Shown here: piece after piece, positions 4,798 to 64,000 of the stretch
Layout of the letters: every line of letters starts with the position of its first letter
Position numbering within the stretch: position 1 is the first letter of the stretch
NCBI GenBank assembly: GCA_943356435.1
Contig: CALREY010000003.1
Location: 1 to 64,000, forward strand
Length of the DNA: 64,000 nt
Reading direction: 5' to 3'
Origin: Candidatus Altimarinota bacterium
GTDB taxonomy: Bacteria; Patescibacteriota; Gracilibacteria; BD1-5; UBA6164
Program-made: the position numbers and the translations under genes
Notes under the pieces: model-generated
Database searches by the model: none
The model's input: only the letters and a program-made list of their open reading frames with translations
What the model was told of the DNA's origin: nothing

Positions 4798-7512
4798 ATG
4801 TTTTTAGAAAAGTTGCAAGAAATCTATTCTATCCTTTTGGCTAGAAAAGACAAAGAACTTAAAAAAAATAACTACAAAGCATTATTTCCTCTGTTTTTTG
4901 AGGCTAGTGTTTTTTTATATATGATTGTTAATTTCGATAAATATGCTTCTGGTGTGTTGAAAAACTCACATATGAGAAAGTCTAATGGTTCTGAAAAAAG
5001 AGCAGAATTATTAGCTGAATTTATTAATTACTATGAGTCTGAGTCGCATCAAGACATCAGAAATATATGCAAGTTTTACCGGGCGCCAAAAAATCTGAAA
5101 GAAGCTATTCTATGTGAATACCCCTTTGAGAAAATGAGTTATTTAGAAATGGTTCAGAAACTTTTTGATACAAACTTTTTGAATGAAATAGATTTGTTTG
5201 TAACTGAGTTTTATTCTCAGGAAGAAACACGGATAAGTTGTTGTATTCCTTATTCTTTATTTCAAGAAGTACCTACTAATCGCAATTATGAGTATTGGAA
5301 TTTATTGCAAGCTAGAGGATTTTTGAATCTAGTAACCGATATGTATTTGAATTATAAGGCTGAGCATGGATATGAAAATAGACTTGCTCAGACACTGTAT
5401 AACTTCATTACTATTGAATTCTCAAATTATTATTACATGTTTTATCGTAATGATGGATCTACGAATAGGGGTACATATACTCAACATTATTACGATGAGC
5501 GTAGACGATTTTTGTCTATGTTTTTTGGTAATTCTGACCGAGGCTTGGAAATAATTGCTTATAGTTTTGCACTTCCTATAAAAGCTTTTAGGAGTTTTTT
5601 ATGGAATATGAATGTAGATTTGCAGGATTTGGAATCCTACATTCGTCGTATGGGTGATAAACAATTTGCTACATTAAAAAATGCATATTATTTGATATGT
5701 GTTGATTCGATGCCGGAGCTGCATCCTGCTTGTACAAAGGGCTGGAAACATATTTTTCATCGTCCTAGTTTGCAGGAAATCAAAAATGAAGAACTGTATG
5801 ATGAATCAGAACGGTTCAAAAAAAACTGGGCTGTAGTAAAAAATGAAGTAGGTTTGGATATGGGATTTACAATGTATCGTGGTACAAAGGATGATACGGT
5901 AAATACAAATGCAAAATACCTCTCAAAAAAGGATCACAAAAATTTCAAGGAAAAGGGATTTAGTGAATTCTATATTAATCCTGATGGATTTTATGGAATT
6001 TGTACCCGAAAGATTTTTGGTAATTATTTGTGGGGTGATTTCGATGAACAAGAAGTGAGCGGATGGGTATGTCCTAGATTTTGGACTACATTTTTGCTAT
6101 ATTTCACTTTGCTAGTCGTATCGCCTGCTTGTATTGGATTATTGTTGCTTGGAGGAATTGAGAATACTAAAGTAATTGTTTGGTTATCGATATTTGGCTC
6201 ACTATTTCCTCTACTATTATTTGCTTATACGCTTAAGTATTTGATACTAAAAGTAGTTAATTTTCTGCTGTATTTAATATGCGGAACAGATGAAAAAGTA
6301 AAGGAATTCATCGACTTAAGTGTTGAAAAAGTGCAAGAAATTAACGATACAAAATATGGTCCAAAAACCTTGTATTTATTTGCTAAAACTATTTGGTGCA
6401 CTTTATTGCTCTCTTGCTTTAGTTATGCTTATGAGCCGATTTTGGCTGTTAGTTTTACAGTGGTCGTTGATTATTTCGTAAGTAGTTATTTGAAAAAAGG
6501 AGCATATATCCCGCTATCAAATCTGAAATATGCTAAATATGCTATTTTCTTGTTGGTATCGGCTCATTTAATTTTTGTATGGGAGACAATATTTGATATT
6601 TCTAGGTTTTTGTTTGATTTTTTCTTGAACTATTATGCATATCTTGTTTCTTTAAGTATGCTGATTGTACCTGCTTTTATCGTTGTCGGTATTTCAAAGA
6701 AGTATTTTGAAGTTCAGGATAAATACGTAGTAGAAAAATCGAGTATTGAATATAGCTATGTTGATTCATTGTTTGATAAACTAGTTATGGTTGTAATATT
6801 TAGTTTCTTTGCAATTTTTCTCGGAGAATTAATATTTTTTGTAAAGTTTAGTGATTTATCATTGCTGAAGGATGGATTGTATACGATATCAATATTTATT
6901 GGTATAAACTTATTGTTATTTTCGCCTAGTTTGTTTTTGTTTAGAAGACCTGTTGTATTGGAATATGAAAAAACTCAGTATAACAGAGGTAAATCAATTG
7001 TAAACAGTTATGTTTCAGGTAAAAGAGTTATTTTTGCTATTTCAAATAATAAATGGCTTTTTGATAAAAAAGAGCAATTTATTGATTACTATAATTTGTT
7101 TGATAGTTTCTCACCTGACAATGGTCCTAAATTTAAACGATTGTTTGTTAAATACATCAATCGATTAGATGATGGATTTTTGTTTGAAGTGAGGTGCTTG
7201 AGAACAATTTTGAACGAAAGACAAAGAGCTTTTTCATTCAAACATATCAAAAAACTTGTTAATTCACAAATGACTGCTCGAGAAGTGGTTGATTATTTTG
7301 ATAAACTGGAGGCAATCCAAAATAAAATTTTCAAAAAAATAGAGATCGTTTATGATTTCTCTGCAATGATTTACAAAGGTATATGCTATCCATTTATTTG
7401 GATTTGGTCTATTGTTTGTATGTTTTTCGGAGCAATTGTTGATTTATATGAATTTGTTATAGATACATTTCACAAGATTTGTCCTTATAGCAATGCTAGT
7501 GAAAGAATTTAA
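4798..7512 (+). CDS. Large multi-pass membrane protein of unknown function (standard-code gene)
   Basis: The 904-aa protein has a long soluble N-terminal half (about residues 1-420) rich in Tyr/Phe. At least eight hydrophobic segments follow between about 425 and 720, including FWTTFLLYFTLLVVSPACIG, VVIFSFFAIFLGELIFFV and TISIFIGINLLLFSPSLFLF. A soluble region comes next, and a final hydrophobic stretch lies near the C-terminus. I do not recognise the family. All glycines are GGN, arginines include CGG, CGC, CGA and CGT, and there is no TGA, in clear contrast with the neighbours. It is monocistronic, with its own promoter and terminator. Its leader shares a motif with the TPM-protein gene at 53698 and its paralogue at 52531, which suggests membership of the same regulon. 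Confidence 0.85.
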   Translation: MFLEKLQEIYSILLARKDKELKKNNYKALFPLFFEASVFLYMIVNFDKYASGVLKNSHMRKSNGSEKRAELLAEFINYYESESHQDIRNICKFYRAPKNLKEAILCEYPFEKMSYLEMVQKLFDTNFLNEIDLFVTEFYSQEETRISCCIPYSLFQEVPTNRNYEYWNLLQARGFLNLVTDMYLNYKAEHGYENRLAQTLYNFITIEFSNYYYMFYRNDGSTNRGTYTQHYYDERRRFLSMFFGNSDRGLEIIAYSFALPIKAFRSFLWNMNVDLQDLESYIRRMGDKQFATLKNAYYLICVDSMPELHPACTKGWKHIFHRPSLQEIKNEELYDESERFKKNWAVVKNEVGLDMGFTMYRGTKDDTVNTNAKYLSKKDHKNFKEKGFSEFYINPDGFYGICTRKIFGNYLWGDFDEQEVSGWVCPRFWTTFLLYFTLLVVSPACIGLLLLGGIENTKVIVWLSIFGSLFPLLLFAYTLKYLILKVVNFLLYLICGTDEKVKEFIDLSVEKVQEINDTKYGPKTLYLFAKTIWCTLLLSCFSYAYEPILAVSFTVVVDYFVSSYLKKGAYIPLSNLKYAKYAIFLLVSAHLIFVWETIFDISRFLFDFFLNYYAYLVSLSMLIVPAFIVVGISKKYFEVQDKYVVEKSSIEYSYVDSLFDKLVMVVIFSFFAIFLGELIFFVKFSDLSLLKDGLYTISIFIGINLLLFSPSLFLFRRPVVLEYEKTQYNRGKSIVNSYVSGKRVIFAISNNKWLFDKKEQFIDYYNLFDSFSPDNGPKFKRLFVKYINRLDDGFLFEVRCLRTILNERQRAFSFKHIKKLVNSQMTAREVVDYFDKLEAIQNKIFKKIEIVYDFSAMIYKGICYPFIWIWSIVCMFFGAIVDLYEFVIDTFHKICPYSNASERI

Positions 7513-51866: not shown

Positions 51867-52388
51867 GTGGAAATTCGACAGAGACTTTTAACATCAATTA
51901 TTTTGTTTTTTCTCATCATTATTCCTGATACATCATTTGCATTCGTGAATAAAAAAACGGATTTTATTTCTAGTATTTTACCTGAAATAGAAATGGCAAA
52001 AGATCGCGTAGGTGGAATTGCGGATAAGATTCCAGCTAGTCTTGTTTTAGCTCAGGCTATTCATGAATCTGGTTGGGGTACATCAAATTTCGCAAAAGAT
52101 AGGAAGAACTTGTTTGGTGTTAAAACAGTAAAGGTAATTCGTAAGAATAAATCAGTACGAAAAGTAATGGTTTACAAGTCATTTAATCGTGTAGGCGAAG
52201 GTATTCGTTATTATTTGAGTAACTACGCGTCGAATGATGATTACGAAGAGTTAAGGAGATATGTTTCTAAAGGCTCCGGTACTCATACTTTAATCAAGCA
52301 TCTGGGCAATTACGCGCAAGATCCAGAGTATGCAGGAAAACTGAAGAAAATCATAGACGACAATCATCTATTGAAGTTCGACAGTTGA
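51867..52388 (+). CDS. Secreted glucosaminidase-type peptidoglycan hydrolase (standard-code gene, TGA stop)
   Basis: This is a 173-aa protein with a signal peptide (LLTSIILFFLIIIPDTSFA) and a glucosaminidase/FlgJ-like domain: ASLVLAQAIHESGWGTSNFA, NLFGVKTVK, VGEGIRYYLSNYASNDDYEE and NYAQDPEYAGKLKKII. The catalytic Glu is in AIHESGWG. The start is GTG at 51867 with GGAGGA upstream. There is no internal TGA, CGN arginines occur (CGA, CGT, CGC), and the gene ends with TGA followed 5 nt later by a terminator. Read with the UGA-Gly code, the protein would gain 15 residues encoded by the terminator hairpin and stop at 52431. Confidence 0.85.
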   Translation: MEIRQRLLTSIILFFLIIIPDTSFAFVNKKTDFISSILPEIEMAKDRVGGIADKIPASLVLAQAIHESGWGTSNFAKDRKNLFGVKTVKVIRKNKSVRKVMVYKSFNRVGEGIRYYLSNYASNDDYEELRRYVSKGSGTHTLIKHLGNYAQDPEYAGKLKKIIDDNHLLKFDS

Positions 52389-52393
52389 TTTAA

Positions 52394-52424
52394 GGGAGTG
52401 AGGCAGAAATGTCTCACTCCTTTT
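52394..52424 (+). terminator. Terminator right after the TGA stop
   Basis: The hairpin GGGAGTGAGGC / GTCTCACTCC is followed by TTTT. It starts 5 nt after the TGA, which argues that this TGA was meant as a stop. Confidence 0.85.
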
Positions 52425-52439
52425 AACTTATAAATACTA

Positions 52440-52467
52440 TTGACAATTAATAAATATTATGTACAAT
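52440..52467 (+). promoter_or_regulatory. Promoter of the 290-aa gene
   Basis: TTGACA and TACAAT are separated by 16 bp with TATG before the -10 box. The leader then carries CTCATTAAAATTTTTCGAAT (52498-52517), a variant of the motif before the genes at 4798 and 53698. Confidence 0.8.
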
Positions 52468-52530
52468 ACAAATATCTAATCTATTTTTATATAGATGCTC
52501 ATTAAAATTTTTCGAATATAGGTAAACACA

Positions 52531-53403
52531 ATGAAACTATTTAAAGCATGTTTAACTATTCTATATATTTTATTTGTTGTAAATAATTACTTTGCTAATT
52601 TTTCTAGCACTAATGTTTCAAACAAATTGAATGTAGAATTGCCGGTTTCAAGTCAGATAAATATTGATTTGAATAACACTAACACTAATGTATTAATAGC
52701 AGATTTGTATAAAACATTGGATAATTTGAATAAACCTGCAAAAAATCTGAATGACAAACATATTTCAGTCAGTCAAAACGATGTGTATGAAAAGGTATGT
52801 GATTTTGTATTTATTACGATTAAAGGTTTTTTAGTTTTAGTCGTTGTATTGTTTATTTTATCAACGATTAGTAATCAAATAAAATATTTCAAAACAAAAT
52901 CAAAAGCAAAAAAAGCAAAAAAATATTGTTTGTATATGATTAACAGTTTCAATACTATTCATGATTTGTTATACAAAGACTTAAGTGTATTATCTGAGTC
53001 TTTCAAAAAAGAAAGATTGTTAAACGAATTATCAGGTGTGAAATGTGATTTCGATAAATATTTATCATTATATGAAAATATTCTACGAATAGGCAGAGAT
53101 CCTGAATACTCTAAATTGCTTTCTGGCGAATATGAAATTGTTATAGAAGATTTTACAAACATTTCAGATAATATTAGTTTTTTGATCAGTGTAATGAATG
53201 AAATACTTCAAGATTCAAAAAATCCTGATACTCAAGATTTGCATTATACTGGTAGAATTGGAGAAGTTGATACTAGCAATGTTTATGGATTAAATCATCT
53301 ACAAGTTAAATCAGTTCCCTATTCAGAAAGAGTTATTGAGAATTTGGGCTTGGATTTTGACTTTAGTGCTGTTAATTCAGTGTCTGATGCTGATCATTTA
53401 TAG
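52531..53403 (+). CDS. Membrane protein paralogous to the C-terminal half of the TPM protein (standard-code gene)
   Basis: This is a 290-aa protein with an N-terminal hydrophobic signal (LFKACLTILYILFVVNNYFA), a membrane helix near residues 91-113 (ITIKGFLVLVVVLFILSTIS), and a helical cytoplasmic part. The last part aligns in pattern with the protein encoded at 53698 (KAKKAKKYCLYMINSFNTIH vs. AKKRKAQ...TTAINSF; LSGEYEIVIEDF vs. LSADEYEQMSVHF; both end in ISVMNEI / FDIMNDI). No TPM domain is present. Gly are GGN, no TGA, stop TAG. Probably a partner or decoy form of the TPM protein. Confidence 0.75.
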   Translation: MKLFKACLTILYILFVVNNYFANFSSTNVSNKLNVELPVSSQINIDLNNTNTNVLIADLYKTLDNLNKPAKNLNDKHISVSQNDVYEKVCDFVFITIKGFLVLVVVLFILSTISNQIKYFKTKSKAKKAKKYCLYMINSFNTIHDLLYKDLSVLSESFKKERLLNELSGVKCDFDKYLSLYENILRIGRDPEYSKLLSGEYEIVIEDFTNISDNISFLISVMNEILQDSKNPDTQDLHYTGRIGEVDTSNVYGLNHLQVKSVPYSERVIENLGLDFDFSAVNSVSDADHL

Positions 53404-53492
53404 TATTTGTATGTCTTACCTAATTCGAGAAATTAATAAAAACAAATATAAAATGATGATTTTGAATCAAGTTTGTAGTATTACAAAATATT

Positions 53493-53588
53493 CAAATCCC
53501 CCTGTCCTACGGACATCCCCCTTAATAAGGGGGACTCAAAAAAAAAGGAGAAAATAAAGACACTGTAACTAGCTTACAGTGTCTTTTT
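53493..53588 (+). repeat. GC-rich repeat plus terminator cassette, copy 1
   Basis: CCCCCTGTCCTACGGACATC and CCCCCTTAATAAGGGGGACT are followed by AAAGGAGAAAATAAA and the terminator AAGACACTGTAA / TTACAGTGTCTTTTT. Copy 2 is at 57575-57669. Both copies lie at the ends of standard-code transcripts. Confidence 0.85.
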
Positions 53589-53605
53589 AATTGATAAAAA
53601 ATATA

Positions 53606-53633
53606 TTGACAAATATAATATTTTATGTATCAT
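53606..53633 (+). promoter_or_regulatory. Promoter of the TPM protein operon
   Basis: TTGACA and TATCAT are separated by 16 bp, with TATG just before the -10 box. The leader motif TTCATTAAAATTTTTTGAAA (53663-53682) lies 35 nt before the ATG. Confidence 0.75.
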
Positions 53634-53697
53634 CTCGCCAATCTGGTATTTTGCTGGAGAAGTTCATTAAAATTTTTTGAAATAGTGAGGAAAAACA

Positions 53698-55338
53698 ATG
53701 AGTAAAATCAAATATAGTTTTGCTTTACTGCTTTTTTTGTTTTTTAGTAATTCATTTGCTGCAAATTATTGCAGTGACTTGATTTATGACGAAACTGGAA
53801 GCATAGAATCAGCGAAATCTGCCCAGTTAGAAACTGCTGCAAATAAGCTGGTTCAGCAAGGTGTTGATGTAAAAGTCAGAATATTAAAAGACCTAAAAGG
53901 TTTTCAAAGTCTGGCTGCTCTAAAAAACAGTGCTCTGGAAAAATGCGGAAGCTGGAAAGGTGGTTCTTCAGGAATGAAAAACAACCTGATGGTTTTCTAT
54001 TATGTTCCAAGCGCTGGTAAAATGGCCTGGTTTTATGGTGATAGCTTAATAAGTAAGTTTGATCCGCTTGAAAAACAAGTTCAAAACGTAATGGCAGGAA
54101 TGTTTCGTGATAAATTGGTTGCTGATGGTTTTATTGCTGGTTTGAATTCTGCAGCAGATGTGAACTCTATTCCATTGGCTCAGCAGAATGCTAAACAATT
54201 AGTAATTAATCAAGCGGCTGATAATTCTCAAGCATGGAGTTTGTTGGGATGGATAGTTTCAATATTTGTTGCATTCATCCTATTTTGGGTTTTAACTATA
54301 GTTTTGTCTAATCGTGCTAAAAAACGTAAGGCACAAGTATCTGCTAAGACTCAAAGAGCTCGTTGCACAACGGCTATTAATTCTTTCGATGAAAAATATG
54401 CCATTTTGAAGGCCAAGTTGAATAAACTTGAGTCTGAGAAAAGAAAGGGTGATTTATTAGCTAGAATGCTAAAAGTAAGATCGAACTTCGATTTATACTC
54501 TGCAAATCTCGATTCGTTGATTCGTGGTGGAAATGATACTGATAATCCGAAACTTTCTGCTGATGAATATGAGCAGATGTCAGTTCATTTTTACGAACTT
54601 GCTCGGAAATTTGAAGCATTGTTCGATATTATGAATGACATCGAGCGTGATTCATTGAGAAATGAAGAAACTGAAGTAAAAATCGATACAGATTACACTG
54701 CTGGAAAATCTGGCTTTGCTGAACAAGTAAGTAAAGTAGAACCAGAAAAGCCAGTAGAAAATCGTCAAGGTCAACATGGCGGAACTTCTACGACTCAAAA
54801 TTATAGTAGTGGTCGAAATGATCCACCAGTTGTTCATCATACCACAGTAATTCATGAACGTGATAGTGGTAGTGATTTCACTACTGGTCTAGTTTTGGGT
54901 AGTATTTTGGCTGATGATGACCGTGAGGTACACCATCACCATCATTATGATGATAATGGTGATGCTAATCGTCAACCTGACTATGGACATCACTCAAACA
55001 ACGATGAGCAACAAAACACTAGTGGTGGAGGTGAAGAGATAGATCTCGGTGAATCTACTAAAGGTGGTGGTTCTGAAATTGATTTGGGTGTAAGTAGTAA
55101 TGGTGGCGGTTCTGAACGAAGTATTTTCGATGAACCAGAAGAAGATGATTCTAAAGGTGGTTCTGAATCGAGCATATTTAGTCGTGATCCAGAACCAGAA
55201 CCTGAACCAGAGCCTGAAGAAGCTCCTGATTTTGGTAGCTCATCTTCGAATGACGATGATGATGATTCGAAACCAGCTGATTCAAATTGTGATTGTGACT
55301 GTGATTGCGATTGTAATTGTGATTCCAGTAACGATTAA
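53698..55338 (+). CDS. TPM-domain membrane protein with Gly/Ser repeats and Cys-Asp tail (standard-code gene)
   Basis: This is a 546-aa protein. A signal peptide (SFALLLFLFFSNSFAANYC) precedes an extracytoplasmic TPM-type domain of about residues 25-165 (SIESAKSAQLETAANKLVQQ, KNNLMVFYYVPSAGKMAWFY). A membrane helix at about 183-205 (LLGWIVSIFVAFILFWVLTI) and a helical cytoplasmic domain shared with the 290-aa paralogue follow. The tail is long and disordered, with His/Asp runs, three GGGSE-type repeats (EEIDLGESTKGGGSEIDLG), EPEPEPEPE, and a final NCDCDCDCDCNCDSS run. TPM domains occur in envelope-stress proteins. The gene directly downstream encodes a radical SAM/SPASM enzyme, so the Cys-Asp tail is a candidate modification site. 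No TGA; stop TAA. Confidence 0.82.
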   Translation: MSKIKYSFALLLFLFFSNSFAANYCSDLIYDETGSIESAKSAQLETAANKLVQQGVDVKVRILKDLKGFQSLAALKNSALEKCGSWKGGSSGMKNNLMVFYYVPSAGKMAWFYGDSLISKFDPLEKQVQNVMAGMFRDKLVADGFIAGLNSAADVNSIPLAQQNAKQLVINQAADNSQAWSLLGWIVSIFVAFILFWVLTIVLSNRAKKRKAQVSAKTQRARCTTAINSFDEKYAILKAKLNKLESEKRKGDLLARMLKVRSNFDLYSANLDSLIRGGNDTDNPKLSADEYEQMSVHFYELARKFEALFDIMNDIERDSLRNEETEVKIDTDYTAGKSGFAEQVSKVEPEKPVENRQGQHGGTSTTQNYSSGRNDPPVVHHTTVIHERDSGSDFTTGLVLGSILADDDREVHHHHHYDDNGDANRQPDYGHHSNNDEQQNTSGGGEEIDLGESTKGGGSEIDLGVSSNGGGSERSIFDEPEEDDSKGGSESSIFSRDPEPEPEPEPEEAPDFGSSSSNDDDDDSKPADSNCDCDCDCDCNCDSSND

Positions 55339-55365
55339 TTGAAACAATAGTAGGGACGGACCTGT

Positions 55366-55470
55366 GTGTCCGTCCTGATACGAAACTGTGTCCGTCCTGA
55401 TACGAAACTGTGTCCGTCCTGATACAAAAAAAGTGTCCGTCCTGATACAAAAAAAGTGTCCGTCCTGATA
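55366..55470. repeat. Five tandem copies of a 22-23 bp unit
   Basis: GTGTCCGTCCTGATAC plus CGAAACT or AAAAAAA starts at 55366, 55388, 55410, 55433 and 55456. Just before it, GGACGGACC...GTCCGTCC (55354-55374) can form a hairpin. The array fills the gap between the TPM gene and the radical SAM gene. Confidence 0.85.
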
Positions 55471-55495
55471 ACTAGATAAATATTTTGGAGTAAAT

Positions 55496-56815
55496 GTGAA
55501 AGAGCGAATTGTAACAGAATTAGGAAATGGGTTTTATGTTGTAGTTAATCCGCATGCATCTAATCCAAGAGATTCATTGCAAGTTCTTAACCAATTACAA
55601 CTAAATGTTTTATCTAAACAATTAAATGGTGTTATAAATTTCGATACTCTGACAGAGAATGAAACTATAGCATTTTACAATCTAGAAAAACGAGGTGTAT
55701 TAAACGATAAAAATGTTGAAACAAACAAGTATCCAAAGACTCTTTCGATATGGCTTCATGTCACTGATCAATGCAATATGGCTTGTACTTACTGCCATGT
55801 AGTAAAAAAGGATCAGCACATGCATGATGCTATGTTGAATGATTTTGCTGATATGTTATTCAGGACAGCTCAAAATAAAGGACTTAGGGAAATAACTCTT
55901 CGTCTAGCAGGTGGAGAACCTGTTCTGAGATTTGCTTCTATTCATGATTGGATTGAAGAAACTAGGAATAGATTAGCGAGTCTGGATTGTAGCTTGAAAA
56001 TAGCTATGTTATCTGGATTAGCTAGCTTGCCAACTCAAGTAGTTGAGTTCGTAAAGAAGCCAAAAAATGGTATATCTGTTTCTATGGATGGGATCGGTGA
56101 AGTACAAGACAAATCTAGACCCTTAGTAAATGGTGAAGGTAGTTTCGAAAAAGTCAGAAAAAATATTGAGAAATTGAAAACAAATGGAGTAAATCCATAT
56201 ATTCTCACTGTTATATCTGATGAAAATATTGAAGGTCTGGTTGATTTCACTAAATGGTTGATTGACGAAAATCTAGGTTTTCGTTATTCTTTCCAAAAAG
56301 GTGGTGAGCTCAACAGATTGAGAGTTGCACAAGTGCTTATAGAGTGTTATGACTTGATTGAGTCTGCTGTTTTGTCTGGTGAATACACAGAGTTTCACAG
56401 ACATAGATTGGCTGATTTATCGACTTTTAATGCTCAAAAAACAGCTTGTGGTGCTGGTAGAAATACTTGTTCAGTTTATCTGGATGGAAATATTTACATG
56501 TGCCAAATGCAACATGGGAATACAAAACCACTCGGAAATGTAACTGATTCAAATGATTTATGTGAAATATTGGTAGATAGGTCAGAGCAGAATGATTTTC
56601 ATGATTTGGATGATACTTGTAAAAAGTGTCACTTGCGTGCTAATTGTTCTGGTGGATGTCCTATTGATAGACAAGGAGGACATAATCCAAATTGTAGTTT
56701 ATTTAAAGAGTTTTTACCAAGAATCCACAAGATTCATGGTTTAAAAAAATTGAAGAAAATTATTGGTGAAGATAAATTCTATCAAAAGTTTTATTCAAAC
56801 AACGCAGTAAATTGA
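55496..56815 (+). CDS. Radical SAM/SPASM peptide-modifying enzyme (standard-code gene, TGA stop)
   Basis: This is a 439-aa protein. The radical SAM cluster motif CNMACTYC lies at about residues 93-100, followed by LAGGEPVLRF (GGEP). The SPASM/twitch auxiliary cluster cysteines are in CGAGRNTCSVYLDGNIYMCQ and CKKCHLRANCSGGCP. This layout fits maturases that cross-link or otherwise modify ribosomal peptides or proteins. The start is GTG at 55496 with TTGGAG before it. The stop is TGA at 56813. Read as Gly, the frame continues for 11 codons without a stop straight into the ATG of the next gene, which would make a 687-aa fusion. Confidence 0.88.
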   Translation: MKERIVTELGNGFYVVVNPHASNPRDSLQVLNQLQLNVLSKQLNGVINFDTLTENETIAFYNLEKRGVLNDKNVETNKYPKTLSIWLHVTDQCNMACTYCHVVKKDQHMHDAMLNDFADMLFRTAQNKGLREITLRLAGGEPVLRFASIHDWIEETRNRLASLDCSLKIAMLSGLASLPTQVVEFVKKPKNGISVSMDGIGEVQDKSRPLVNGEGSFEKVRKNIEKLKTNGVNPYILTVISDENIEGLVDFTKWLIDENLGFRYSFQKGGELNRLRVAQVLIECYDLIESAVLSGEYTEFHRHRLADLSTFNAQKTACGAGRNTCSVYLDGNIYMCQMQHGNTKPLGNVTDSNDLCEILVDRSEQNDFHDLDDTCKKCHLRANCSGGCPIDRQGGHNPNCSLFKEFLPRIHKIHGLKKLKKIIGEDKFYQKFYSNNAVN

Positions 56816-56845
56816 AATTTCAACAACCTATATAGGAAAAACAAA

Positions 56846-57559
56846 ATGTCACAATCTATTTTAGATAAATTGCGCGTTATCTCTCTATCCAACTTGCATT
56901 CATTTTTGGATGCAGTAAAGGCAATGAACTCAATCGGTGAGCTCGAGCAATATATTCGAGATATTACTACCGTACGTAATAATCTAGATGATCAATCGGC
57001 ATCACTACGTGGTCGCAAGTCGTATCTGGAAACTCAAATCTCATCGGCTGAAGCAAACATCGCCGTTGCAAATGAAAACATCGATCTGGTACTCGGTGAC
57101 GATGATCCTGAAAACGATCACATCGCTGTTGGACTGCAGGTTGAGATGGATGCAGCCGAGAAAAAGATTGCTAGTGCTCAAGCTGAGCTCGATACAATCC
57201 TACCACAGGTTGCACAGTTCGACGAAGCAGTCATAAAACTGAACACCAAACTGCAAGAATCCAACATTAAGTTGGAAACTCTCAAATCACTTGAAGACAC
57301 AACCAATGCAAAAGAAAAGGCTGCAAAAGCTCTTTCTAGCATTGATTTCGGCGATGAGCCTGATACCAGCGGTGTTGAGTCAAGACTGCATCAAAAAGCA
57401 GCGGTTGCCGATAATGCTTTGCAACGTTCTCTTGGTGAAGTAACTGCAAGTATTGGTATTTCTTCGAGTCTAGATATGGCCAAGGTCAAAATCGAGCAAC
57501 GCAAAAAGCTCTTGCAACAGAAAAAACAAGGTGATGCCACAATTAATATAATCACCTAA
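56846..57559 (+). CDS. PspA/IM30-like coiled-coil protein (standard-code gene)
   Basis: This is a 237-aa protein, almost all helix, with the PspA/Vipp1 style: a short amphipathic start (ILDKLRVISLSNLHSFLDAV), then ELEQYIRDITTVRNNLDDQS and a long coiled coil (AEKKIASAQAELDTILPQVA). A more variable end contains ASIGISSSLDMAKVKIEQRK. PspA-type proteins polymerise on the inner membrane to repair it (family knowledge). It follows the radical SAM gene by 30 nt. CGN codons and GGN glycines only; stop TAA. The PspA assignment comes from pattern and context, so a different coiled-coil family is possible. Confidence 0.65.
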   Translation: MSQSILDKLRVISLSNLHSFLDAVKAMNSIGELEQYIRDITTVRNNLDDQSASLRGRKSYLETQISSAEANIAVANENIDLVLGDDDPENDHIAVGLQVEMDAAEKKIASAQAELDTILPQVAQFDEAVIKLNTKLQESNIKLETLKSLEDTTNAKEKAAKALSSIDFGDEPDTSGVESRLHQKAAVADNALQRSLGEVTASIGISSSLDMAKVKIEQRKKLLQQKKQGDATINIIT

Positions 57560-57574
57560 AAATCAAAACAAAAA

Positions 57575-57669
57575 CAAATCCCCCTGTCCTTCGGACATCC
57601 CCCTTATTAAGGGGGACTTAAAAAAAAAGGAGAAAATAAAGACACTGTAAGAAATTACAGTGTCTTTTT
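57575..57669 (+). repeat. GC-rich repeat plus terminator cassette, copy 2
   Basis: CCCCCTGTCCTTCGGACATC and CCCCCTTATTAAGGGGGACT, then AAAGGAGAAAATAAA and the terminator AAGACACTGTAA / TTACAGTGTCTTTTT. Nearly identical to 53493-53588. Confidence 0.85.
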
Positions 57670-57692
57670 ATGTGAAAAAATTATTAATATAA

Positions 57693-57720
57693 TTGACAAA
57701 ATAGATAAATATTTTATTAT
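57693..57720 (+). promoter_or_regulatory. Promoter of the 550-aa UGA-Gly gene
   Basis: TTGACA and TATTAT are separated by 16 bp, 30 nt before the GTG at 57751. Confidence 0.75.
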
Positions 57721-57750
57721 ATCTTTAATTTAATTTTAATATACTTTTTT

Positions 57751-59403
57751 GTGGATAAAATAGAGATAATTGAGGGTTTACAAGTTTTGAGTACTTATGA
57801 TAGAATGAGTATAGATGAAAAAGTTGTAGATGCAATGGAAGAAACTATTGATGATTATTATGATTTGATGAAAAATCCACAGGAAAATCAATTAGATATT
57901 TCACCTATAGATTATTATCAATGAGTAAATTGAGTATTGGTAAAAAAAGAATCAGAAAATCAATTCGTAAATCAATATAGATTTGAAACATATGACTATT
58001 TATGTAAAAAATATTCTAAAAAATGGATGGATAATTTATTTATGGTATTAAATACCTCAAATTCTGGTACTTATATAGATAAAATGTTAGAAATTATCTA
58101 TGATATATGAGACTTAGAAATGATCCATACATTAGTTTATATAGACTCTGAGCTTATCTGAAAATCACTTTTATACAAACATTATTTATCTAAAATACAA
58201 AATGATTTGGTATATAGTGAGTCAGCTAAAATATTATGATTATTTTTGTATGAAAAAGTAGAATATAGAAAATCATATGAGTTTATAAGTAAAATAAAAG
58301 AAACTAATTTAGTTATTTTAGATAAAGATTTATTATGTATTTATATCATATTAAATAAAGTAGTAAATAATGATGTATGATCTGATGAATTATTGGAACA
58401 TTTATCTAATATTATCAGTAAAGAATATGACAAATGAACAATTGATGATGAAAAATTCAAGGACGATCTATCTTTTATATTTTCTAATTATATAGATTTT
58501 TATCTGAAATTTGACAAAAAATATGATAATTTGATTCAATCTGCTGAACAATCTGTTATATTATGAGATGAAAATGCAAACTATCATTTGGTTTATTGAT
58601 ACATTCAAAAATGAGATTTATTAAATGCTACCCATGCATATAATAAATGGAGATGATACAGAAAGAATAAAAAATCATTTTTATGAAAGAATCCTATCAA
58701 TTCACTTGAAGAATTTTATTTGTATTGATGTGAAATCTGAATAATTTGAGCAAATGAATTATTAATCAATTTTTATAGAGAAGAATTTGAAAATAATTGA
58801 TATAATGATGACTATTTCGAGAAAATATTATTTTATACTATAGATTGAGAATATGAATTTTCTGAAAAAGATAATATATTTTTTGAATGTTTCAATAAAT
58901 ATGTAGATAGTTTGGATAATGACAAGAAACAATTTTGAATGATTGATATGTTGTTTACTAAATATATAGATACATGATTTGCTCTATATCTAGATAAAAT
59001 TTTATCTATATGTTCTAAAATACTTAGAGGATGATATGCTTGAAATCCAGAATTGAAGAAAAAAGTATCTGCATGGATAGAAAAAATGGCAGTTATAGAC
59101 GCAAGTCGTGATAATCAAGAATTATCAGAAACATTAAATGAAGAATATTTGAAGAATAAAATATCATTATTAAACGATGTAGATTATTTGGATGCTAGGT
59201 TTGATGAATTGTTATTAATTATGTGTGTACATAATCTACAATATGTAAATACATTTAGTAAAATACTAGATATACCTACTACACTGGCTTCAATTTTTGA
59301 TTATTTTGGAATGTACAATGAAACTAATCTTGCTCTTCAATTCGACGATTTTTTTCAAAAAAATAATACACCAATTACTAACGTAAAAAAAGCTCAAAAC
59401 TAA
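57751..59403 (+). CDS. Hypothetical helical protein (UGA-Gly gene embedded in the standard-code block)
   Basis: This is a 550-aa protein with TGA read as Gly (for example GGYAGNPELKKK and YQGVNGVLVKK, where several Gly are TGA). It looks all-helical and acidic (LEMIHTLVYIDSELIGKSLL, NYHLVYGYIQKGDLLNATHA), with possible TPR-like or Sel1-like helix pairs. No family recognised. The start is GTG at 57751 after its own promoter. It is the only UGA-Gly gene between the standard-code genes ending at 57559 and those ending at 59532, which proves the block is not a single contiguous foreign insert. Its function may be tied to the module. Confidence 0.75.
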
Positions 59404-59424
59404 TTTTAGTTTTGAGCTTTTTGA
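59390..59424 (+). terminator. Terminator of the 550-aa gene
   Basis: The hairpin AAAGCTCAAAACTAA / TTAGTTTTGAGCTTTTT overlaps the stop codon. Confidence 0.8.
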
Positions 59425-59432
59425 AAATAAAA

Positions 59433-59458
59433 AAACTTCTAGGTTTAACCTAGAAGTC
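59433..59458 (-). terminator. Terminator of the TelA-ABC operon
   Basis: The palindrome AACTTCTAGGTT / AACCTAGAAGT is followed on the minus strand by TTTTTTATTTT, downstream of the ATPase gene ending at 59532. Confidence 0.75.
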
Positions 59459-59531
59459 TTAACCTCCTTTTGATTGTATTAATTTGTTTTGGTTTTTCAA
59501 TACTATTTTGTATTTGTTTTTCATTTTGTTT

Positions 59532-60467
59532 TTACATTTTGTTTTTGTTTTCCTCTTCTGTTAACGTTTGAAAGGCATTTTCGCTATTTAGCTTAAATGT
59601 CTTCACATGTTGTTTGTAATCAGGATCCAATCCAGCTTTGTCAGCTTCGCTTAAAAGTGGTTTTATGAGTGGAATATATCCATCATAGCCCAATGTGCGT
59701 CTTTGAGGTAAATATTGCTCAAATGACACATCATGTACTATTTTTGAACCTCTTTTAAAGTCATCACCACGATCATCGGTATAATATTGTGACAAGACCA
59801 CTAGACGCGACCCAAGAAATCCAGCTTCGTGAATATCATGAGTGACAAATAGTATAGTCATACCAAATTCTTCCCATAATTCTAGCAAATACAACTGTGT
59901 ATCTCTTCGAATGTTTTGGTCCAATGCACCGAATGGTTCATCCATGAGTAAAATATCATGTTTTGCCATAAGTGCTTGAACTATTGCTACTCTTTGTTGC
60001 ATACCACCTGATAATTCATGTGGTTTTTTATGTGCTGCTTCAATGAGTCTGACTCTTTCTAGCAACTCCATTGCTTCATCTATATATCTTCCCTTTTCTT
60101 GTTTCCACCAGTTTCTATGAAGTGCTATTTTCCAGAGCGGTGTTGACCAAACTTTGGATAAAATAACATTTTCTAAAACTGTTTTGTGCGGTAAAAGAGA
60201 GTATTTTTGATAAACTATTCCACGATGTTTGTTAGGAAAATCAGCATCTTTACTATCAATTAGTACTTCACCGGTTTTTGAAACGAATTCTTGACCGACA
60301 ATCAGACGAAATAGTGTACTTTTACCAGATCCAGATGGACCTAGTAGAGTCACGAGTTCACCTTTTTCAATTGATAGATCGAGATTATCCAATATGATTT
60401 GCTTATTGTAACCATGCATTACATCTTGAATATGTAGTTTGTTAGTTCGGAGTTCTTGTATATCCAT
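59532..60467 (-). CDS. ABC transporter ATP-binding protein, NitT/TauT type (standard-code gene)
   Basis: This is a 311-aa protein from the ATG at 60467, which sits 5 nt after the permease stop; an upstream in-frame ATG at 60548 would overlap the permease gene. Motifs are LVTLLGPSGSGKSTLFRLIV (Walker A), RGIVYQKYSLLPHKTVLENV (Q-loop), HELSGGMQQRVAIVQALM (signature), and ILLMDEPFGALDQNIRRDTQ (Walker B/D-loop). The codon for the conserved R in QNIRRD is CGA, so CGA is read as Arg here. It powers the permease encoded directly upstream. No TGA; stop TAA. Confidence 0.9.
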   Translation of the reverse strand: MDIQELRTNKLHIQDVMHGYNKQIILDNLDLSIEKGELVTLLGPSGSGKSTLFRLIVGQEFVSKTGEVLIDSKDADFPNKHRGIVYQKYSLLPHKTVLENVILSKVWSTPLWKIALHRNWWKQEKGRYIDEAMELLERVRLIEAAHKKPHELSGGMQQRVAIVQALMAKHDILLMDEPFGALDQNIRRDTQLYLLELWEEFGMTILFVTHDIHEAGFLGSRLVVLSQYYTDDRGDDFKRGSKIVHDVSFEQYLPQRRTLGYDGYIPLIKPLLSEADKAGLDPDYKQHVKTFKLNSENAFQTLTEEENKNKM

Positions 60468-60472
60468 TTGAT

Positions 60473-61294
60473 TTACTCTTCGTGTTTGATTTTTTCGTAA
60501 ATTAATTTCAGACCATAGTCCATCAAATATGCTAGATAAGCTGTCCAAATACCGTACGGAATAATGATATCCATATTCATTTGTCTTTTGTTTATAGCTA
60601 CTTGATGTCCTAGACCAGTTTCAGATGTAGAAAATTCTGCCATGATAAGAAATATCCAAGCTGCACCTAGACTAAAACGTATAGCATTTATCCATTTCGG
60701 AAGTAGAAGTGGTATAACCATTCGATGAACGATACCAGCATCTGACAAACCTAGTGTTGCTGCTTTGACTGCATAAGCTTTTCTTATATTTTCTGCATTT
60801 AGTAACATATCTCTAGCAATAAAAAATACGGTACCCAATGCAATTAGTGAAACTTTACCCACATCTTCAAATCCAACCACATATGAAATAATAGGTTGAA
60901 AAATAGGTATAACGATAACAGAAAGTACAATGGTAAAAGTGCCGAACATTTGTCTCAAACCTGGATATACACCCATGTATAAGCCCCATATTAAGCCTAT
61001 TACTACACTAATACTTACTCCTGAAACCAACCTAACCAGACTGTCATATGTATCTACCCAGAAAGTGTATTGTTCTGAGTATTGATCTTTGGTGAATGCG
61101 AGATTCTTCATTGATTCATACATTTGACTGAAGTATGGAAACAATCGATCGTCAGGATTTATTTGATGCCTAGAATATGCAAAATACATATATAATACCA
61201 AGCAAAAAATAAATGGCCATAAATTGCACAACACTGCAAACCATCTTTTTTGAGATGGGTCTGCATGAATTCCTAAGAAAAGTGGTTTTTTCAT
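60473..61294 (-). CDS. ABC transporter permease, NitT/TauT type (standard-code gene)
   Basis: This is a 273-aa protein with six membrane helices (FIFCLVLYMYFAYSR; VSGVSISVVIGLIWGLYMGV; FTIVLSVIVIPIFQPIISYV; and others). The cytoplasmic EAA-like loop is VKAATLGLSDAGIVHRMVIP. It belongs to the SsuC/TauC type. It lies 5 nt upstream of the ATPase gene and 55 nt downstream of the binding protein gene, completing an importer. No TGA; stop TAA. Confidence 0.88.
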   Translation of the reverse strand: MKKPLFLGIHADPSQKRWFAVLCNLWPFIFCLVLYMYFAYSRHQINPDDRLFPYFSQMYESMKNLAFTKDQYSEQYTFWVDTYDSLVRLVSGVSISVVIGLIWGLYMGVYPGLRQMFGTFTIVLSVIVIPIFQPIISYVVGFEDVGKVSLIALGTVFFIARDMLLNAENIRKAYAVKAATLGLSDAGIVHRMVIPLLLPKWINAIRFSLGAAWIFLIMAEFSTSETGLGHQVAINKRQMNMDIIIPYGIWTAYLAYLMDYGLKLIYEKIKHEE

Positions 61295-61349
61295 ATTTCA
61301 CCTATCTTGCAAATGTACTCATCCCTGAGCACATTTACGATTAAAAAAT

Positions 61350-62372
61350 TTACTTGATTAATCCTTCGTCAAGCATTTTTTGTGCATAACTAGCATCAAA
61401 AGTCAGCGAAACATTATTGGCATTGCCGATAACAGTTCCATTTGGAAATTTGACACCTATTTTGTCAACATCACTTGCAGTCAGACCGGTAGAGAACAAC
61501 CAATTGTGAACACGACCACTCATGTTTTGAATGAATGCATCAGAGCTCATAAAAGCAATTGCATCTTTTGGGTTATCCAATCTGAATGTTGTTGATAACT
61601 GATCTTTGTAGCTATCAAGTGAATCGTTTGGCACAGCAGCGATATTTGTTAGTACTTGATCGTTGTTCATAGAAGCAACGACTTCATACCAGATCCCAAC
61701 CAATGCTTTAATTGCATTTTCCGGCATTTTTGCATCGACAGCTAAGCCGTCAACGATATAACCAGGAAATTGAGCTGAGCTACACAGACTAGTGACATTT
61801 TTCACTTGGTTAACAAATGGTTTCCAAGTAACACCTGAAGATTTTTTAGCACCTTCAAATGCTAGAACAATGTCACTTTCTGCCGCTTGGATAGCTCCAA
61901 CAGAACGAATATCAACACTAATATCACCCAAACAAGCAAACAGAAGCATATCGGATACCGAATCGTTATCGTATCTGAATTTCACTTTTTTCTTCACGCA
62001 TTCTTGGAGCGTTGTGCACTCGTTTGAAAATGCGACATCATTACCGTTTGAAAAGTCTCCAGCAATTGGAAAAATGACTTTTTTCGATGTAGCAACTGAC
62101 CAAGCGTCACCGTTGGTAATAGTTACTGCATCGATTTTTCCATTACGAAATAGGTCGAGAGAATCAGTGTACGACGAAGCTTGAACGATGTCGATTTTGA
62201 CCCCCATCTTTTCTTCCCATTTCTTCACAATACCTTCTCTTTTTGCGTATTCCCACTGATACCAGTAGGCATAGTATGACCAGCCGACTTTGATAGTAGG
62301 AACTTCCGCTTTCGCGATTGCTGTAGAAAACAGAGCAATAAGTGTAAACAAACTAATAATAGTTTTTTTCAT
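61350..62372 (-). CDS. Periplasmic binding protein of the ABC importer (urea-carboxylase-region-like family)
   Basis: This is a 340-aa protein from the ATG at 62372, with the signal peptide KKTIISLFTLIALFSTAIAKA and RBS AGAGG. The mature part starts EVPTIKVGWSYYAYWYQWEY, then VQASSYTDSLDLFRNGKIDA and VTITNGDAWSV. This matches the NMT1/TauA-like binding proteins, closest in my judgement to the group described as associated with urea carboxylase (TIGR03427-like). The true ligand is unknown. No TGA; CGA and CGT arginines; stop TAA. Confidence 0.82.
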   Translation of the reverse strand: MKKTIISLFTLIALFSTAIAKAEVPTIKVGWSYYAYWYQWEYAKREGIVKKWEEKMGVKIDIVQASSYTDSLDLFRNGKIDAVTITNGDAWSVATSKKVIFPIAGDFSNGNDVAFSNECTTLQECVKKKVKFRYDNDSVSDMLLFACLGDISVDIRSVGAIQAAESDIVLAFEGAKKSSGVTWKPFVNQVKNVTSLCSSAQFPGYIVDGLAVDAKMPENAIKALVGIWYEVVASMNNDQVLTNIAAVPNDSLDSYKDQLSTTFRLDNPKDAIAFMSSDAFIQNMSGRVHNWLFSTGLTASDVDKIGVKFPNGTVIGNANNVSLTFDASYAQKMLDEGLIK

Positions 62373-62400
62373 TAGTATATACCTCTTTTGGATTGAATGA

Positions 62401-63615
62401 TTAGATTTTTTCAGCAGCCGCATCCATATTTGCTTTTTTGATGGATGCGTCAACTTGATTTTTCAGTTTAAGCAACAGGTCTTCGGCGGCACGACGATTT
62501 TCAGCTGATTGTTTTTCGTTTTCACGATCAGTTTCAATAGCTGTAATAGTAGATTCCACCAAAGACTCAATTTCTTGAGCTCTTTTCAAAGCAAGACCTT
62601 GACTTTCTTTTGCCACATTTACGACTTCATCGACGATTTCGGTAGTGTGCTTGTTCAGTCTAGATTCCACTTCATCGAGAGCTTGACGGTCTTTTTGAGC
62701 TTCTTTCGTTTCGTACAGAGCAATCAGCTCGACTATTGAGGCTTTGAGTTTCGGTATTACGAATAGAATACCTCTGACAATGCCTTCGATTTCGATTTTG
62801 ATTGCGTCCTGTGTTCTACGAACACGAGGAATAGTGACAGATGAAGCTTCCACATAGGCAAGTTTCAGCTGTATAAATCTCGTGTCAAAACTTGCTATTT
62901 GTTGGTAAATGTCTCTTACATCTTGTAGTTTGAGTGTATCGTTACTTTGTAATGCAGCCTTGGCAAGTTCATCGTACTCAGCTTTGGCTTTTTTCAGAAT
63001 GTCTTCACCGGCTGCAATGTAGATGCGGATACCGTTGATTTGCTCGATTGTTGCATTGCGCAATTTATCGAGTTTATCACTTTCATTGGTCAGTGTTTGG
63101 ATGCGATTGTTGTATTTCTCAACCAGCTCATCAAACTTTTGAACAATTGTATCTTGACTTTGCATCAGGTAATTTACATAGTCAGCGATACCACCGAGTG
63201 CTTCGATAATACCAGAAAACAACTTTGTAAGTTTCCCTTGACCATGTATAATTTGCTCTTTGGTTTGATCCAATTTCAGTAAATCTATGCCGTCATTGAG
63301 TTCGATTGCCAATTGACCAGCCAGACCAGCGTCTTTTGTCTTAATACCAGCTAAGAGTTGATCCAAAATGCTATTGAATGCATTTTGTGGTGCAGCACCG
63401 TAATACAAGTTTGCAGCAGTGTTCATGATGTCATGACCAGCTACAATTTTCTCGACTTCAGCCAAATCAGAGGGTGACATCTCATCGCGATTGATGAGTT
63501 CATCGTCACCTTTGGTTTCGATTACCATCGGTAAATTTGCTGTACCACCAGTAGCAAATACATTAGCGTCAGCGATAGTGGCAGATTCAGTAGTTGATTG
63601 TTGTTGTTCACTCAT
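62401..63615 (-). CDS. TelA/KlaA-like toxic anion resistance protein (standard-code gene)
   Basis: This is a 404-aa protein, nearly all helical, of typical TelA length. Typical TelA segments are DLLKLDQTKEQIIHGQGKLT, LYYGAAPQNAFNSILDQLLA (N-terminal), FIQLKLAYVEASSVTIPRVR, RTQDAIKIEIEGIVRGILFV and EIVDEVVNVAKESQGLALKR. TelA proteins are linked with tellurite and other envelope stress, and often sit beside PspA or TPM-type genes. It is transcribed first of the visible run: TelA, binding protein, permease, ATPase. Start ATG at 63615 after AAGGGGC. No TGA; stop TAA. Confidence 0.88.
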   Translation of the reverse strand: MSEQQQSTTESATIADANVFATGGTANLPMVIETKGDDELINRDEMSPSDLAEVEKIVAGHDIMNTAANLYYGAAPQNAFNSILDQLLAGIKTKDAGLAGQLAIELNDGIDLLKLDQTKEQIIHGQGKLTKLFSGIIEALGGIADYVNYLMQSQDTIVQKFDELVEKYNNRIQTLTNESDKLDKLRNATIEQINGIRIYIAAGEDILKKAKAEYDELAKAALQSNDTLKLQDVRDIYQQIASFDTRFIQLKLAYVEASSVTIPRVRRTQDAIKIEIEGIVRGILFVIPKLKASIVELIALYETKEAQKDRQALDEVESRLNKHTTEIVDEVVNVAKESQGLALKRAQEIESLVESTITAIETDRENEKQSAENRRAAEDLLLKLKNQVDASIKKANMDAAAEKI

Positions 63616-63616
63616 T

Positions 63617-64000
63617 TTAAGCCCCTTTTTCAGGTAAATAAAGATTGGTTTTGTTTGCTAAATCAGATGCTTGATTTCTCAAGTTTTCCAGAGCTAGTGC
63701 TTTGGACATATCTGAAATATTAGCTACTTTTACAGTTAATTCAGCCAGACCTGTGAGGGTCTTTTCTACTTCGTTTATTAGTATTTCAACTTCATTTTCT
63801 TGTGTTTCCTTTAAATTTATTTGGTTTAAAAATGGTTGTTTTTCAGCATCATTATCAGCTGAATTGATAGATCTATTTAAACTATCTACATCAATCGTTT
63901 GAACAGAGCGGTACTTCGATAGAGCTTCCATTAGCTTGTTTAGTACTGCTAAATTTATTTGTTCAGCAATACTTAAATACTCGCCATGGCTAATACTGTT
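63617..64000 (-). CDS. Helical protein upstream of TelA, 5' end beyond the window (standard-code gene)
   Basis: The frame is open from the right edge of the window, with SHGEYLSIAEQINLAVLNKL before the first visible Met at 63931. The C-terminal part reads LAELTVKVANISDMSKALAL and LANKTNLYLPEKGA and is mostly helical. No family recognised, although in many bacteria an XpaC-like gene stands before telA and this could be such a gene. It ends 1 nt before the telA ATG, so it is translationally linked. Partial. Confidence 0.65.
   Translation of the reverse strand, partial: NSISHGEYLSIAEQINLAVLNKLMEALSKYRSVQTIDVDSLNRSINSADNDAEKQPFLNQINLKETQENEVEILINEVEKTLTGLAELTVKVANISDMSKALALENLRNQASDLANKTNLYLPEKGA

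Follow-up and report, generated by a model that had tools for sequence, protein, structure and literature searches.

A Cys-Asp tail of a TPM-like membrane protein as a probable substrate of the adjacent radical SAM/SPASM enzyme in a Patescibacteria genome

Can a RiPP-type maturase use the tail of a membrane protein as its substrate and leave the product attached? The question is raised by one locus in the 64,000-nucleotide stretch of DNA analyzed here (the window), where the gene of a 546-aa TPM-like membrane protein ending in a run of Cys and Asp (53698..55338, + strand) is followed, 157 bases downstream, by the gene of a 439-aa radical SAM/SPASM enzyme (55496..56815, +) and then by that of a PspA/IM30-family protein (56846..57559, +). 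On balance, we consider it probable that the enzyme is a maturase of this type, acting on the Cys-Asp tail of its neighbor, and that the modified product remains part of the protein.

As judged from the open reading frame, Pfam and hydropathy, the TPM-like protein comprises a signal peptide, a weak TPM domain (residues 29-154), a helix (residues 186-204), a cytoplasmic helical region and an acidic low-complexity tail. The original prediction had called it a TPM protein, but the TPM assignment is weak, the Pfam match (PF04536; E 0.0046, 17.4 bits) falling short of the gathering cut-off of 22.1. The C-terminus reads ...SNCDCDCDCDCNCDSSND (in another excerpt, ...DSKPADSNCDCDCDCDCNCDSSND), and the alternation of Cys and Asp is exactly as had been described. 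The proposed substrate segment, NCDCDCDCDCNCDSSND, is encoded at 55285..55338 (+) and is suggested by its sequence, its codons and the same motif beside all five closest enzyme homologs; six of the nine Cys of the protein lie at residues 531-541 (55288-55320), and the strictly alternating run offers Cys-to-Asp spacings of CX0D, CX2D and CX4D. Since the tail comes after a basic stretch and the sole hydrophobic helix past the signal peptide in the computed hydropathy profile, it should be cytoplasmic, on the same side as the enzyme, in agreement with the location that had been proposed.

GGGSE/IDLG repeats do precede the tail (about 55024..55185, +) and may represent a linker or a built-in leader. 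The suggestion that they act as a recognition sequence fared less well: a position-specific scan built from four free-peptide leaders (ELGI type) passed over the IDLG repeats, whose score is not like that of the free-peptide leader motif. Within the 64-kb window, other matches to C[DE]C or CxCxC fell only in short or chance frames, and a scan for candidate substrates found no further Cys-rich ORF near the enzyme. A partial paralogue encoded upstream (52531..53403, +; 31% identity over 137 aa, E 4e-12) has the helix and the helical region and lacks both the TPM domain and the Cys tail. Plasmid and phage sequences yielded no match for the TPM-like protein itself, and other TPM proteins of the phylum with readable tails have Gly-rich ends and no Cys run. 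Between the tail and the enzyme gene, at 55365-55476, there are five tandem repeats of 22-23 nt (TGTGTCCGTCCTGATACGAAAC) that are absent elsewhere in the window.

The enzyme gene starts with GTG, and its complete frame (55496-56812) encodes CNMACTYC (CX3CX2C), C318, GX4C, CX2CX5CX3C and a final C400, so that the SPASM cysteine set is full and the gene is indeed of the SPASM type that had been recognized next to the TPM gene. Its computed domain make-up agrees with this description: Pfam Radical_SAM was matched with an E-value of 1.4e-12, and SPASM scored above its cut-off in the genome search. The enzyme is not a PapB family member: PapB (NF047865; 6.2e-37) is its top NCBIfam match, but it reaches only 127.6 bits where the cut-off is 340. 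Its QhpD score is 90.7 bits, the cut-off there being 453. Genome and viral contigs scanned with the window enzyme alone yielded no relative, and its plasmid and phage matches were generic radical SAM proteins, with approximately 22-27% identity among the matches listed. In the same genome (G000), six more SPASM-type genes, most of them with in-frame TGA, are clustered at 10-31 kb of contig C14 (L001-L003, L005-L007).

The N-terminal domain of the enzyme (55496..55723, +) is predicted to be RRE/PqqD-like, that is, of a leader-binding type. In the model of residues 1-83, it resembles RiPP leader-binding domains: TigE, CteB, lasso B1, PqqD, McbB and other RRE domains were matched with modest Z-scores (2.9-6.2), and most of the leading matches were leader-binding domains. 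Pfam PqqD was matched in only one clade member, with an E-value of 0.075. The model of the whole enzyme (mean pLDDT 68.7, six sequences) matched anSME, ChlB, CteB and TigE; no PapB structure was among these matches, which is no argument against kinship.

Does the enzyme travel with the motif? The co-conservation of the Cys-Asp motif with the radical SAM gene in homologous loci had been proposed beforehand as the check on the prediction, and it was found in all of the closest relatives. When 380 genomes of the phylum were searched, five homologs stood out as clearly closer (L053-L057; E 1e-37 to 1e-46, the next being 3e-20); they come from four families and form a clade with the window enzyme (support 99/94; 200/200 bootstrap trees). 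A small Cys/Asp-rich ORF lies within 500 bp in each of the five loci (e.g., VDCDCDCTDADD). The neighboring ORF is MAAELGIFSSSSNAGMTTQCLDECTSPVDCDCDCTDADD in L054, MQIISDQLTNSSHLGDCGNPSGSECVECTDCDCPDGDCEDN in L053 and ...GAQCDCACSPGRITFI in L055, the weakest case of the five; two such ORFs adjoin the enzyme in L056, and one long ORF does so in L057. In all partner ORFs, Cys occurs together with acidic residues. A CDC-bearing ORF at a distance of at most 500 bp was counted in 5/5 loci, compared with none in 79 kb of surrounding DNA, and this computed co-occurrence corresponds to a Poisson P of about 1e-11, with the reservation that the motif had been noticed in the five loci before the test; with two loci of one genus counted once, P is about 1e-9 by our own reckoning. 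Support for this pairing of enzyme and motif is good.

Two findings had been named beforehand as speaking against the prediction, and neither was seen. No enzyme homolog was found beside a Cys-free TPM protein, and the sole clade member without a Cys-Asp ORF has a truncated enzyme. The latter locus (L074; G232 contig C1, 63.9-67.3 kb), from a congener of two of the members, retains the gene for an HExxH protein but no Cys-Asp ORF; the peptide ORFs and most of the enzyme went in one deletion, so this co-loss is a single event. Searches around the clade members revealed no additional full-length member. HExxH proteins are encoded near four of the five free-peptide loci; two of them are homologous to each other (27% identity, E 3e-18), none of the four scanned matched a Pfam family above its cut-off, and none is encoded in the block that contains the window locus.

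Of 140 more distant radical SAM hits, 14 lie no more than 500 bp from a C[DE]C ORF; these ORFs include chance frames as well as Cys-rich peptides of other kinds. CDCDCDC alone does not predict a neighboring radical SAM enzyme and is common elsewhere without one: an A1-type radical SAM gene at E <= 1e-10 accompanied 4/236 CDCDCDC loci among the matches listed (2/116 cellular, 2/120 viral). Some of the more distant radical SAM genes in the phylum also adjoin small Cys/Asp-rich ORFs, at 1679-1930 in L068 (ADCEDCDCYDCVCQCDYC) and at 1057-1215 in L069 (CYGDCQDDCDCYCESYC). In three viral contigs (L095, L113, L147), Cys-rich ORFs of a repetitive kind lie near radical SAM genes; the CNFCPCNCNFCPC repeats in L113 are an example. 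In eight loci of gut Clostridia (L169, L170, L181, L193, L215, L219, L226, L242), CDCDCDC runs occur beside zinc-ribbon-like CPxC motifs, and the stretches read around these loci contain no A1-type radical SAM gene.

Such clostridial zinc-ribbon-like proteins lend some credit to the idea that the tail stays unmodified and serves a PspA-partner protein in metal binding or redox sensing, the enzyme having another substrate and being there by chance. The same idea draws on known PspA-TPM operons (ydjFGHL), which, according to a survey, encode zinc-ribbon proteins (PMC11237479). We consider it unlikely, since the association of enzyme and motif is specific to the clade and the window contains no alternative Cys-rich candidate substrate. 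Besides the single locus with the membrane-protein form, the CDCDCDC runs elsewhere that lack such an enzyme and the IDLG repeats unlike the peptide leaders, two features count against the proposed reading: the window enzyme is the deepest branch of the six-enzyme clade, with approximately 26-29% identity to the others, and the whole tail is acidic and of low complexity (DDDDD, EPEPEPEPE), as if prone to slippage. With these points taken into account, it is still quite likely that the tail is the substrate of the enzyme. Because the nearest enzyme relatives all stand beside small Cys-Asp peptides, a substrate of the peptide type has probably been incorporated into a membrane protein here, as its tail.

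We propose that part of the cytoplasmic tail would serve as a built-in leader, held by the N-terminal domain of the enzyme, and that the radical site would then join Cys sulfur to the side chains of nearby Asp (or Asn) residues. The links would most likely be non-alpha-carbon thioethers of the PapB/QhpD type, up to six in number and each lowering the mass by 2 Da. In the relatives, the motif is found in small free peptides, which an HExxH protein may trim at four of the five loci; here, where no such protein is encoded nearby, the modified tail would be kept on the membrane protein, on the cytoplasmic side and next to PspA. We put the chances that the product is in fact a Cys-Asp thioether at about even. 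SPASM enzyme chemistry varies widely, and both the structural matches to anSME, ChlB, CteB and TigE and scores far from those of every characterized family leave some room for another reaction on the tail, whether epimerization or the formation of S-to-alpha-carbon thioethers, of carbon-carbon bonds or of different links. That the tail is modified in such a different manner seems to us rather improbable, however, as PapB ranks first among the curated families for all six clade enzymes and Cys is paired with acidic residues in every partner ORF. The notion that the tail is a functionless by-product of repeat slippage, with the enzyme as a passenger, may take comfort from the EP and D repeats directly upstream and from CDCDCDC in many unrelated frames, but it is highly improbable given the clade-wide association of enzyme and motif and the mixed synonymous codons of the run (TGT/TGC, GAT/GAC), which show that it is not a pure DNA microsatellite.

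The genetic code of the host adds a further aspect to the locus. TGA accounts for 424 of the 575 glycine codons (74%) in the 17 surrounding genes, a model search for RF2 in the 90% complete assembly found only RF1, and the host genome reads TGA as glycine. The region picked out by the original prediction ends at 56815, with the stop codon of the enzyme gene; this codon is TGA (56813-56815), at which the frame continues in this host. Under code 25, this TGA is in frame with the ATG of PspA, and the frame 55496-57559 encodes 687 aa. As TGA is read as Gly and no RF2 was found, translation should read through to yield a 687-aa enzyme-PspA protein; PspA may also be made alone, since AGGA precedes its ATG. 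The PspA protein scores above its Pfam cut-off (PspA_IM30, PF04012; 1.4e-10, 41.6 bits against a gathering cut-off of 33.9). That the tail works together with PspA in envelope upkeep is a possibility that we put forward tentatively.

The locus belongs to a block from which TGA is absent: codon counts gave no TGA among the 164 glycines of eight counted genes (P 8e-76). The block extends from 51867 to 64000 of the window and on to about 70.4 kb of the contig (L286), and it encodes a glucosaminidase, the TPM, radical SAM and PspA proteins, an ABC transporter (putative-urea-type), TelA, and OmpA-like and VWA proteins; a TGA-rich gene (57751-59403) interrupts it. A TGA-free block in a TGA=Gly genome was most likely acquired from a donor with the standard code, as far as its codon content indicates. 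The original prediction had included neither this acquisition nor the PspA read-through, the leader-binding type of domain or the relatives with standalone peptides. The donor was not found, the ABC binding protein showing at most 36% identity to plasmid proteins. A hairpin repeat, of which two copies are 90% identical (53495-53600, 57577-57680), flanks the TPM-radical SAM-PspA cassette, and contigs C4, C7, C12 and C27 also contain parts of it; these repeats shared with other contigs and the TGA-rich gene inside the block make a chimeric assembly less likely. Two more long TGA-free genes, without a Pfam match, lie at 844-1812 (-; 322 aa) and 4798-7512 (+; 904 aa).

More speculatively, an uncurated Cys-Asp radical SAM peptide system of Patescibacteria might have become a modification of a membrane stress-type protein, with the core as a permanent cytoplasmic tail and the read-through joining the enzyme to PspA and thereby bringing it to the membrane; we hold this scenario to be less likely than not. 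If the tail is modified as proposed, then Cys-Asp radical SAM chemistry, so far a matter of free peptides and of one small enzyme subunit (QhpC), would also take in a membrane-protein tail. The loci further suggest that the candidate phyla radiation has a family of Cys-Asp peptide systems that is not yet curated; the membrane-protein form is known from the window locus only. The window locus also illustrates what can happen to standard-code genes in a host with TGA=Gly: a stop codon becomes a linker between an enzyme and its neighbor. In the literature, which we covered in part, we found no description of Cys-Asp alternating peptides in these bacteria.

How does the locus compare with known systems? 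Classical RiPPs have a small precursor with a leader that is cut after modification, whereas here the motif ends a 546-aa membrane protein. PapB and PapA offer the likeness of a radical SAM/SPASM enzyme beside a Cys/Asp substrate, and PapB, a maturase of ranthipeptides that links Cys to Asp or Glu, is the top curated match of the six clade members. Ranthipeptides are defined by a non-alpha-carbon thioether, from S to Cbeta or Cgamma, in the product. PapA, however, carries CX3D motifs in a free peptide, and the CX3D/E motifs that characterize the partner peptides of the PapB family are absent from the window tail, in which Cys and Asp alternate. PapB processes CXnD at spacings of n = 0-6, although conversion is incomplete for 0 and 6, and it can also form nested links (PMC9413430). 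The radical SAM enzyme QhpD, which depends on a leader, installs Cys-to-Asp/Glu thioethers in a protein (PMC7876137), and it thereby sets a precedent for protein-borne links; its substrate QhpC differs in being a small exported subunit whose leader is removed by a protease. TPM beside PspA is a known arrangement, as described for YdjH in the B. subtilis ydjFGHL operon (PMC11237479), and the likeness includes a TPM-like protein with a low-complexity tail encoded beside PspA; the main text of that survey mentions no radical SAM gene, and the TPM match in our locus is below the Pfam cut-off. The loci L053-L057 belong to no curated family; they share the enzyme clade and the adjoining Cys-Asp motif with the window locus and differ from it in that the motif resides in small standalone ORFs, with an HExxH protein near four of the five.
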